Shown here piece by piece: positions 29,212 to 32,543 of a DNA stretch of 32,591 nucleotides. Every line of letters starts with the position of its first letter. Position 1 is the stretch's first letter. The stretch lies in assembly GCA_002793515.1 (NCBI GenBank), contig PFEU01000028.1, positions 1 to 32,591 of the forward strand, read 5' to 3'. The translations under genes and the position numbers were made by a program. The notes under the pieces are model-generated. The model did no database searches, was not told the origin of the DNA, and saw only the letters and a list, made by a program, of their open reading frames with translations. The stretch comes from Candidatus Uhrbacteria bacterium CG10_big_fil_rev_8_21_14_0_10_48_16 (GTDB taxonomy: Bacteria > Patescibacteriota > Patescibacteriia > UBA9934 > GWF2-40-263).

Positions 29212-31002
29212 TTATTCTGGGAACTGACTTTCTTGCTTGGCTCGATCGATAAGCTCTCCGGCCTCGATAAGCAAATCTTCTTCTTGCCCGAAGACATTGA
29301 CCTTAAAGTCTCCTCCGTCCGCTTCTTGTGCACCAATCACAATGGTCCATGGCACTTTATTCTTGGCCGCATCTCGAATCTTTCTTCCGAGTTTCTCATG
29401 AGAGGCATCAAGTTCAACGCGTACACCAGCTGTGCGAAGCTTCTCCTCAAGCTCCTTGGCAAAAGCAATGTAATCCTGACTGACGGTTGCAAGAACGATC
29501 TGCACAGGCGCAAGCCAGAATGGAAACGCTCCTGCGGTATGCTCAATCATGACAGATAAGAATCGTTCAATCGCCCCCATAATGGCCGCATGAATCATTA
29601 CGATTCGTTCTGGCTCCCCTGCTTCGTTCACACACGAGAGATTAAAGCGCTCTGGAAGGTTTCGATCCAACTGAATCGTTGCGACTTGCCATTCACGTCC
29701 GATAGAATCTTTGGTAATAAAATCAATCTTCGGTCCATAAAACGCCGCCTCCCCTACACCAAGGAAGTATTCTGCTCCGCGCTCATCAAGCATTTCTTTG
29801 AGTCCTGAGACAGACTTATCCCACAGATCGAGTCCCCCTAGATACTTCTCCATGTTGTTTGGATCGTGTGTGGAAAGACGTAATCGTAGGGAAAACCCAA
29901 ACGCCCCATAAAACGTTTCAATAATATCCCAAATCTTCATCGCCTCTTCCTTCACTTGAGATTCTCGACAAAAGACATGGGCATCATCCTGCGTAAAAGA
30001 ACGGAGTCGTGAAAGACCATGTAACTCCCCTGTCTGCTCATCTCGGTAACACATCGTGGTGTTTGCAAGGCGTTGTGGCATTTCTCGATAGCTATGTTGT
30101 TTGCGATCAAAGATTTGTGTGTGATGCGGACAGTTCATCGGTTTCATCGCAAACACATGCCCCTCACGCGTCGTAATCTTAAACAGCTCGTCCTGAAACT
30201 TCTCCCAGTGGCCAGAGGTCTCATACAATTCCTTTTTTGTAATATGCGGAATCTCAACTTTCTGGTACCCACGCGCCTGACGCAGGCTCCACACAAACTC
30301 GTCAAGCTTGTTACGCAAAATCGTTCCCTTTGGCGTCCACATAGGAAGACCAGGACCCACAAGATCTGAAAAAATAAAGAGGTCTAGTTCCTTTCCAAGT
30401 TTTCGATGATCTCGTTTCTTCGCTTCTTCAAGCATGGTGAGATAGGCATCGAGCTCCTCCTTTGTCTCAAAACAAAGTCCGTAGATGCGTTGCAACTGCG
30501 CGTTTCCCTCATTTCCACGCCAATACGCTCCCGCTAACTTCCAGAGTTTAAACGCCCCGACCTCTTTTGTGTTCCCTACGTGAGGCCCTCGACACAAATC
30601 CACAAATTCTCCTGTTTTGTAGATCGAAGCTGTATCTGGATGCTCCACATCAATATCCTGTGCTTCTTCTGGATTGATCTTTGTTGTCCCTTTCTCTTTG
30701 AGATCTTTTAAAAGTTCAACTTTGAACTCCTGATCTTTTTCCGCAAAGAAAGCGATCGCTTCATCAATCGACATCTCCTCACGAGCCATCTCATGACCCT
30801 GATTCACAATCTTGTGCATTTCTTTTTCAAGTTTTTTCAAGACATCATCAGAAACAGGCTCTGGGAAGAGAATATCGTAAAAGAATCCGTTCTCAATCAC
30901 CGGTCCAACTCCGAACTTTACTCCTGGATACAATCGCTGTGCGGCTGCCGCAAGGACGTGCGCTGCGGTATGACGCATGGCGTGTAGGTTGTCTTCATGC
31001 AT
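29212..31002 (-). CDS. thrS: Threonyl-tRNA synthetase lacking the TGS domain
   Basis: A 596-aa class II synthetase charging tRNA(Thr). The usual 60-65-residue N-terminal TGS domain is absent: the protein starts at the editing domain, with the HxxxH zinc-like motif HTAAH (His11, His15) and the DLCRGPHV motif near 135. The catalytic core follows with motif 1 around PMWTPKGTILRNKLDEF, MKPMNCPHH (zinc Cys), motif 2 near RLRSFTQDDAHVFC (zinc His) and motif 3 with MIHAAIMGAIERF (zinc His). The anticodon domain (about 495-596) begins PFWLAPVQIVLATVS. The start fits ATCT-ATG right after the T-box. Expression is predicted to rise when tRNA(Thr) is uncharged. Confidence 0.95.
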   Translation of the reverse strand: MHEDNLHAMRHTAAHVLAAAAQRLYPGVKFGVGPVIENGFFYDILFPEPVSDDVLKKLEKEMHKIVNQGHEMAREEMSIDEAIAFFAEKDQEFKVELLKDLKEKGTTKINPEEAQDIDVEHPDTASIYKTGEFVDLCRGPHVGNTKEVGAFKLWKLAGAYWRGNEGNAQLQRIYGLCFETKEELDAYLTMLEEAKKRDHRKLGKELDLFIFSDLVGPGLPMWTPKGTILRNKLDEFVWSLRQARGYQKVEIPHITKKELYETSGHWEKFQDELFKITTREGHVFAMKPMNCPHHTQIFDRKQHSYREMPQRLANTTMCYRDEQTGELHGLSRLRSFTQDDAHVFCRESQVKEEAMKIWDIIETFYGAFGFSLRLRLSTHDPNNMEKYLGGLDLWDKSVSGLKEMLDERGAEYFLGVGEAAFYGPKIDFITKDSIGREWQVATIQLDRNLPERFNLSCVNEAGEPERIVMIHAAIMGAIERFLSVMIEHTAGAFPFWLAPVQIVLATVSQDYIAFAKELEEKLRTAGVRVELDASHEKLGRKIRDAAKNKVPWTIVIGAQEADGGDFKVNVFGQEEDLLIEAGELIDRAKQESQFPE

Positions 31003-31020
31003 AGATTTTTGGTTATTTAA

Positions 31021-31244
31021 AAAAGCTCCGTCTTCACGCAGCTTCGGGACCCAACAAGGGCGGTTCCACCCGATTTATGACGATCTCTGACTCAAGATCG
31101 CCATCTCTTACTTATAACCCTATCCCAGGGCCAAGGATCACTCAGAAAGTGGTATACAAAAGGAGGTCTCGGGAAAAGCTCTCAGTCACGGCTCTTCCTC
31201 CCTGTCGAGTTTCATCTTCTGTACATGTCTTTCATCACGGCAAT
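31021..31244 (-). promoter_or_regulatory. T-box riboswitch of thrS
   Basis: Read on the minus strand the leader holds all T-box parts. Antiterminator (31048-31073): CGGG, bulge TGGAACC, GCCC, TTGTT, GGGT, CCCG, which is the canonical form with the tRNA-end-reading TGGN. Terminator: AAGCTGCGT (31036-31044) with ACGGAGCTT (31023-31031), then TTTT. Stem I: GAAAG / CTTTC and GTACAGAAG / CTTTTGTAT enclose an internal loop whose 3' side reads ACC then A, a threonine specifier codon for tRNA(Thr) GGU. A 10-bp hairpin (31077-31104) fits stem III. This fills the 314-nt gap between thrS and the next gene. Confidence 0.88.
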
Positions 31245-31250
31245 ACAAAA

Positions 31251-31279
31251 ACGATATCTCTCTAGCTCTATTTCGTCAA
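31251..31279 (-). promoter_or_regulatory. Promoter of thrS
   Basis: Minus strand: TTGACG (31274-31279), 17-nt spacer, TATCGT (31251-31256). It places the start of the T-box leader near 31244. Confidence 0.75.
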
Positions 31280-31284
31280 GAATA

Positions 31285-31313
31285 AAAAACTCTGGCTTTT
31301 TACCAGAGTTTTA
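31285..31313. terminator. Terminator of the gp47-like gene
   Basis: ACTCTGG (31289-31295) and CCAGAGT (31303-31309), with T-runs on both strands; positioned 4 nt after the gene ending at 31317. Confidence 0.88.
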
Positions 31314-31316
31314 TCT

Positions 31317-32543
31317 TTATCGAATATCGATATAAATATGATCTTTGAGTCTTGGAACCGTGCTCACCCAGAATGGGAAGAACTCGACCGAGACATCCGT
31401 CGCAACCCCTTCCCCAACAAGCAGATCACGCACTTCTTCCTCAGTCATCCCGACGAAGCGCTTTACTTGAAGGGCTTCACTGGTCCGAGAGGTAATCGCC
31501 GGTACAGAAAGGGATACGAGAATATTTGCTTGTCCTGCTTCCTCATCTACCCCCTCAACACGTACGCTCATATTCTCAGAACTGATGTTCAAAAATTCTT
31601 GACCCTGTCCAAGATCCTCATAGAGCTTCGCAATCGCAATCTTTTCAAGCGATTCTGAATCATAGAACACGCCTGTCACCTTCAATGTCAGTGCCACATC
31701 AAAACTCTCTGCTTCTGTCTCAGGCTCAATACTAAAGGTCTTTTCAACAATTTCTACATCATACGACTGACCAGAGAACGTTTCTCCCACCTCCGCAATC
31801 AACATCTCTTTCGCATCCGCAACCAATGCAAGCTCGAGTTCTAATGCGGACGCATCCAATTCAGCCTGGGACACAACGGCAACAGAATACTCCCCTCCAA
31901 CAAACGCCGTATCGCTCTGTGCATAGACAGATGCTTGTCGCGCCTCGGAAAGACCTGGAATCGTAAACCGCGTCGCCTCAATATTTCCACTGGCTCCAGC
32001 AACATCTGCATACAATTCAGCTTCAACACTCCCCCCAGCCGGCACCGTCACCCCATCTTCGAGTCGAAACAAGACTCCTGACTCAGAAAGAAAACGTGTC
32101 GTCGCAACTAATTGTTGCGCAAAGGAAAGCTCATTGCGAATCGTCACCATGCCTCGAGCCACATCTTCAACCAGTTTTGAAGATTCTCCGGAAGGTTCGA
32201 ATGTTTGTGACTTTCCAATCGTTCCTGAGACAACGGTTCCACGTACATCGGTCACGCGTGTTGGTGTTTCAAAAACGTTTGCCACAAACTCCGCGGTAAT
32301 ATCTGCTTCTGTAGAATCAACATGAATGATCGCTTGAACCGTTGAAAGATACAAAACCGCAAGTAAGGCAGACGCAACCAACACAATGAACGTGAGAGCA
32401 ATCCGTCGATACATAATAAGTGGAACCGCCGCAGGTTGGTGGATGTCTAAATCTTCAACATCCTTTACAGAGATCTTTGTCGCTCTTGTTCCTCCCTTTT
32501 TGACGGCCACTCGTTTTTTTGGAGCAGCTTTTTTTGTGGTCAT
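31317..32543 (-). CDS. Membrane-anchored baseplate-J/gp47-like protein
   Basis: A 408-aa protein: a Lys/Arg-rich cytoplasmic start (MTTKKAAPKKRVAVKKGG), one membrane helix (about 48-68), then an extracytoplasmic beta-rich region. VTVPAGGSVEAELYADVAGASGNIEATRFTIPGL, followed by VGGEYSVAVVSQAELD, matches the baseplate J/gp47 pattern (PAGS, G-x-x-GN, GG-x(n)-VSQ-x-D) as I know it from phage baseplates and many CPR membrane proteins. In CPR its role is unknown, perhaps in a surface or pilus-like structure. The C-terminal FVGMTEEEVRDLLVGEG resembles a short PASTA-like or helical element. No other baseplate gene is nearby, so it is not evidence of a prophage. Confidence 0.8.
   Translation of the reverse strand: MTTKKAAPKKRVAVKKGGTRATKISVKDVEDLDIHQPAAVPLIMYRRIALTFIVLVASALLAVLYLSTVQAIIHVDSTEADITAEFVANVFETPTRVTDVRGTVVSGTIGKSQTFEPSGESSKLVEDVARGMVTIRNELSFAQQLVATTRFLSESGVLFRLEDGVTVPAGGSVEAELYADVAGASGNIEATRFTIPGLSEARQASVYAQSDTAFVGGEYSVAVVSQAELDASALELELALVADAKEMLIAEVGETFSGQSYDVEIVEKTFSIEPETEAESFDVALTLKVTGVFYDSESLEKIAIAKLYEDLGQGQEFLNISSENMSVRVEGVDEEAGQANILVSLSVPAITSRTSEALQVKRFVGMTEEEVRDLLVGEGVATDVSVEFFPFWVSTVPRLKDHIYIDIR

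Follow-up and report, generated by a model that had tools for sequence, protein, structure and literature searches.

T-boxes have been described mainly as a Firmicutes device, and CPR organisms are thought to lack much regulation. A T-box-like leader before a threonyl-tRNA synthetase gene (thrS) of Candidatus Uhrbacteria (contig PFEU01000028.1; the whole analyzed stretch of 32,591 nucleotides is termed the window) raises the question of whether it is a genuine tRNA sensor, and of how it could switch with a terminator that stands beside its antiterminator, not inside it. Compared by ThrS, the closest genomes that bear a name are those of Candidatus Uhrbacteria and of other Parcubacteria-group MAGs, in line with the CPR affiliation suggested in a preliminary description of this DNA. 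On sequence grounds, the leader 5' of thrS, running on the minus strand from the promoter at 31279 to the U-tract at 31019, is confirmed as a genuine threonine T-box. We further consider it very probable that this leader senses tRNA-Thr, with uncharged tRNA giving read-through, the adjacent hairpin otherwise terminating transcription, and, as the least certain element, steric or stacking effects blocking that hairpin. The features of the locus are as follows:

31317-32543, minus strand: gene upstream of thrS, without a family match
31286-31312, minus strand: terminator of that gene, setting it apart from the transcription unit of thrS (terminator scan)
31251-31279, minus strand: promoter, TTGACG (-35, 31279-31274), 17-nt spacer, TATCGT (-10, 31256-31251) (pattern and conservation)
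31042-31247, minus strand: T-box sensing region, full-length RF00230 match (51.7 bits, E 1.2e-10; 7.7e-11 in the own-genome search)
31141-31240, minus strand: stem I with K-turn-type flanks GTGATG / TGAG (double compensatory changes)
31233-31229/31149-31145, minus strand: lower helix of stem I, GAAAG/CTTTC
31224-31216/31162-31154, minus strand: middle helix of stem I, GTACAGAAG/CTTTTGTAT
31172-31205, minus strand: distal stem I, with ACAGGGA bulge (31205-31199), apical helix GGAAGAGC/GCTTTTCC and loop CGTGACTGAGA (Rfam consensus alignment, conservation)
31151-31153, minus strand: specifier codon ACC (Thr), in an internal loop of stem I (Thr codon in relatives)
31118-31138, minus strand: putative IIA/B-like pseudoknot of 21 nt, ATCC (31138-31135) with loop GGAT, and hairpin CCCT/AGGG (hairpin in the RF00230 alignment)
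31105-31109, minus strand: AAGAG, the RRRxG purine string before stem III (sequence; motif per PMC7583486)
31077-31104, minus strand: stem III, ATGGCGATCT (31104-31095) / AGATCGTCAT (31086-31077) (covariation)
31044-31073, minus strand: antiterminator, with A1 TCGGG (31073-31069) / CCCGA (31048-31044), 7-nt bulge TGGAACC (31068-31062) and A2 GCCC/GGGT
31019-31043, minus strand: intrinsic terminator AGCTGCGT-GAAG-ACGGAGCT (31043-31024) followed by TTTTT, abutting A1 (compensatory changes against L147)
29212-31002, minus strand: thrS, threonyl-tRNA synthetase, 596 aa, ATG at 31002 (TIGR00418, 634 bits, cut-off 384)

A default scan of the window at the Rfam gathering threshold gives no match to the leader, because its 51.7 bits fall under the RF00230 cut-off of 93 bits, which is a curation threshold and not a biological feature. 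The direct RF00230 covariance search that the preliminary description had called for returned a full-length match (model positions 1-219, E 1.2e-10), the sole one in this 0.99-Mb, 96%-complete genome. For comparison, thrS leaders were collected from relatives, and R1, a covariance model of the 3' half, was built here from thrS leaders; it scores the present leader, itself in the training set, at 65.4 bits (E 4.7e-15). R1 gave two further matches in the genome, of 18 and 14 bits, neither of them credible; the 18-bit one lacked the T-box bulge motif on reading and was rejected. The RF00230 and R1 searches gave no further T-box before other synthetases of this genome, a check that the preliminary description had proposed.

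All elements of the complete T-box that had been described were located on the minus strand, and their letters were verified. The 7-nt UGGNACC bulge stands between A1 and A2, with a G-U pair at the base of A2, and stem III is flanked by RRRxG and by an AA directly after it; in solved T-boxes, RRRxG-stem III-AA and the A2-basal G-U inspect the tRNA 3' end (PMC7583486). Stem I is long, and its distal part, with ACAGGGA and the apical loop CGUGACUGAGA at conserved places, is likely, judged from sequence only, the double T-loop motif (IDTM) that binds the tRNA elbow. Between stem I and stem III there is only the 21-nt hairpin/pseudoknot and no stem II domain with an S-turn; the IIA/B-like pairing of loop and flank is weakly suggested by a permutation p of about 0.04, a value to which many leaders, not having been parsed, did not contribute. 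Taken by itself, the promoter pattern is close to what chance would give (0.7 expected in shuffles); TTGAC-N17-TATNNT, however, is kept across the thrS leaders of relatives. A G-G mismatch interrupts the stem of the thrS terminator, which is why a simple terminator scan does not report it. For the upstream open reading frame (31317-32543), Pfam and NCBIfam scans returned no family; its C-terminal DHIYIDI recurs 5' of thrS in relatives, and the thrS neighborhood therefore seems conserved.

The specifier ACC, within stem I and before thrS, is a codon for the amino acid of the regulated gene. A Thr codon occupies this position in at least 27 of 29 homologous thrS leaders (mostly ACC, some ACU, and ACA in L049/L051), and the threonine specificity first read from the single leader is upheld. 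The discriminator U predicted from the TGGA bulge was also found: UGGA can pair with the UCCA that ends this genome's own tRNA-Thr(UGU) and the tRNA-Thr(GGU) of congeners, and all tRNA-Thr genes read from relatives, GGU included, end in UCCA, except one CGU gene that was incomplete in the read-out. The bulge reads TGGA in the thrS leaders but TGGC in the T-boxes that relatives have before trpS, asnS, and aspS. Because Gly, Cys, and some Ser tRNAs in this genome also have discriminator U, identity would be carried by the specifier. Searching the own assembly gave UGU and CGU genes only, and no tRNA-Thr(GGU) gene. Several relatives have this gene upstream of the UGU gene, at a distance of a few hundred bases. 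In the present assembly the contig stops 9 bases past tRNA-Thr(UGU); the GGU gene is probably just beyond the contig end. Neither tRNA-Asp nor tRNA-Trp was seen among the recovered tRNA genes (G000 set), possibly owing to assembly gaps or introns.

The expression platform is where this leader departs from expectation. Standard transcriptional T-boxes build the 5' strand of their terminator from the 3' strands of A1 and A2 (PMC10907184, PMC7583486). The thrS terminator does not use these strands: it begins right after A1 and overlaps the antiterminator by 2 nt at most, so that the near-absence of overlap noticed in the preliminary description is real, and it is lineage-wide. Most thrS leaders of close relatives share 0–3 nt between the two structures; L049, L051, L053, and other thrS leaders share 4–5 nt, and T-boxes on other genes in the phylum mostly share 6–14 nt (a few could not be parsed). 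The mean pair probability of the thrS terminator is 0.96 when free and 0.76 with the antiterminator locked; in L049, a strand-exchanging relative, it is 0.97 when free and 0.09 when locked. Nearest-neighbor energies thus predict that antiterminator and terminator coexist in the thrS leader, and pairing energies by themselves leave its switching unexplained.

The following sequence of events is proposed. In the nascent leader, stem I would capture tRNA-Thr through the specifier ACC (anticodon GGU) and the distal elbow-binding motif. An uncharged tRNA would pair through its UCCA end with the UGGA bulge, the unit of stem III and antiterminator would close on it, and transcription would run on into thrS. 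When tRNA-Thr is charged, or when none is present, the hairpin next to the antiterminator would stop transcription at the U-tract. The closed antiterminator-tRNA complex would block the abutting hairpin sterically and not by strand exchange, which is the least certain step; the block could alternatively take the form of competition for stacking and for 2–3 basal pairs (G/A/A with U). More broadly, the Uhrbacteria thrS leaders may represent a T-box subtype that antiterminates without strand exchange, its adjacent terminator blocked by sterics or stacking, and that evolved within one family from the overlapping arrangement; we put this forward tentatively, as a suggestion somewhat short of probable. 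The abutting terminator offers a natural test of whether T-box switching really needs strand exchange.

The strongest competing explanation accepts the sensing part as a real T-box and retains strand competition, with an extra pairing that captures the 5' arm of the terminator in the bound state. The similarity of this arm (CUUCAC) in many relatives could reflect such a partner, and the terminator and A1 junction are letter-identical in congener G004 though stem III and the A2 loop have diverged there. However, inspection of the leaders by eye gave no consistent partner for the arm, and its conservation may be simple inheritance; we regard an extra pairing as rather unlikely. An extension of A1 into the terminator via a bulged C was also considered and rejected on inspection, being inconsistent across leaders.

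Predicted coexistence of the two structures could also mean that some formation of the terminator is constant and that the T-box has its effect at another level, such as thrS translation or mRNA stability. Sequestration of a Shine-Dalgarno site was rejected, as no Shine-Dalgarno-like sequence that the T-box might hide is seen between the hairpin and the thrS ATG. Furthermore, nearly every thrS T-box leader examined retains the hairpin and U-tract, and other thrS leaders have a hairpin that overlaps A1, as in transcriptional T-boxes. Action at another level therefore appears improbable, and steric or stacking exclusion of the adjacent terminator remains our preferred reading.

Comparison among relatives indicates that the helices are under selection for pairing. 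Across 25 thrS leaders, stem III, A1, and A2 form standard pairs in 94.9% of cells (100% for A1 and A2), with both-sided changes at 11 of the 14 pairs, a degree of covariation reached by none of 500 shuffles. Double compensatory changes are found at 17 of 19 predicted stem I pairs among the 18 thrS leaders with a long stem I. The low Rfam score, and the loss or deletion of the T-box in three congeners, might be taken as signs of a decaying element that no longer switches. Against this, comparison within the genus shows that stem III differs from that of G004 by three double compensatory changes, with every pair preserved, and that the terminator differs from that of L147 by two while retaining the same G-G mismatch, and the specifier, bulge, A1, and A2 are intact; decay is accordingly very improbable. 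Chance resemblance, that is, an ordinary 5' UTR with two hairpins, would fit the unexceptional single-sequence folding of the leader (z -1.7) and is refuted by the covariation together with the full-length model match, the Thr specifier, and the discriminator match, leaving it a negligible probability. The L147 contig is labeled Lentisphaerae bacterium GWF2_44_16, and its Uhrbacteria-like thrS (80% identity), present together with its T-box, suggests that it is probably mis-binned.

Sequence and covariation together establish the architecture, the specifier, the match of bulge and discriminator, and the conserved antiterminator and terminator. From these we infer tRNA binding, the direction of regulation, and switching in the thrS leader.

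The element has been lost in part of the genus. The thrS genes of congeners G001 and G002 lack a T-box. In G005 the promoter and the opening bases of stem I persist, and only a short stretch then leads to the ATG, the pattern that a deletion of the T-box would leave. Its absence from these three makes the T-box dispensable over evolutionary time, yet it is maintained here. In other relatives without a T-box (L174, L180, L193), a short hairpin of the GCGGTCATAACGACCGCTTTT type is situated just before the thrS ATG.

The preliminary description had supposed that T-boxes are not routine in CPR, and this supposition proved wrong. RF00230 matches (E<=0.001) occur in 128 of 380 genomes sampled across the phylum, with 13 of the 380 over the Rfam cut-off, and in 30 of 59 near relatives; R1 matches 123 of 286 genomes of the class, and thrS was carried at 16 of the 19 R1 loci checked. 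In a control set of 14 genomes, RF00230 matched in only five, all from phyla known for T-boxes, and two of these five pass the gathering cut-off. Targets in CPR comprise thrS, trpS, asnS, aspS, proS, argS, argG, tyrS, a valS/ileS-type synthetase, and a trpE-type gene, several of them named by eye from the protein start. Additional T-boxes precede a Glycos_transf_3-type gene in Uhrbacteria and other CPR (L034, L035, L037, L039, L132, L137; Pfam PF00591 in L034, the others by similarity). Still others (L032, L033, L040; L036, L038; L117), several of which score highly with RF00230, precede genes that lacked a Pfam match where scanned (L032, L036, L117). A group of thrS-type leaders (L054, L056, L075, L192, L144, L205, L211) has a truncated stem I with the specifier in a short apical loop (UUCACCAACC); these resemble translational class III T-boxes, but intrinsic terminators come next.

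Our coverage of the literature was partial and gave no paper joining the T-box with Patescibacteria, Parcubacteria, or CPR, and an earlier report is possible. The presence of T-boxes in roughly a third of the sampled CPR genomes, nearly all under the Rfam cut-off, would widen the known range of this element. It would also bear on whether T-boxes are ancient or were spread by transfer, and would point to amino-acid-responsive gene control in CPR.

Among known systems, the class I transcriptional T-boxes (B. subtilis tyrS; RF00230) are a close counterpart, sharing with the thrS leader a long stem I, the distal tRNA-elbow motif, an internal-loop specifier, the K-turn, RRRxG-stem III-AA, A1/UGGNACC/A2 with the G-U pair, an intrinsic terminator, and a synthetase gene downstream. 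Class I requires a long stem I, the IDTM, and a stem II with an S-turn (PMC10482949). The thrS leader lacks a long stem II with an S-turn, having the short 21-nt hairpin/pseudoknot instead, and is therefore not filed as strict class I on its sequence; it also differs from the tyrS type in a terminator that abuts A1 without using the A1/A2 3' strands, in a score under the Rfam cut-off, and in its CPR host. With the class II (glyQS) T-boxes it shares a long stem I and the lack of stem II; those are glycine-specific with a single-stranded linker, whereas this leader reads Thr and has a small hairpin in the linker. The thrS T-boxes of other Patescibacteria families in the same class (for example L049, L051, L053, L212) precede the homologous gene and share the Thr specifier, the UGGA bulge, and A1/A2, with stem I truncated in some members of this group. 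Unlike the present leader, their terminators contain the whole A1 3' strand (5-nt overlap), which is ordinary strand exchange. Set beside these systems, the Uhrbacteria thrS leader is a true T-box, specific for threonine, whose expression platform is unusual.
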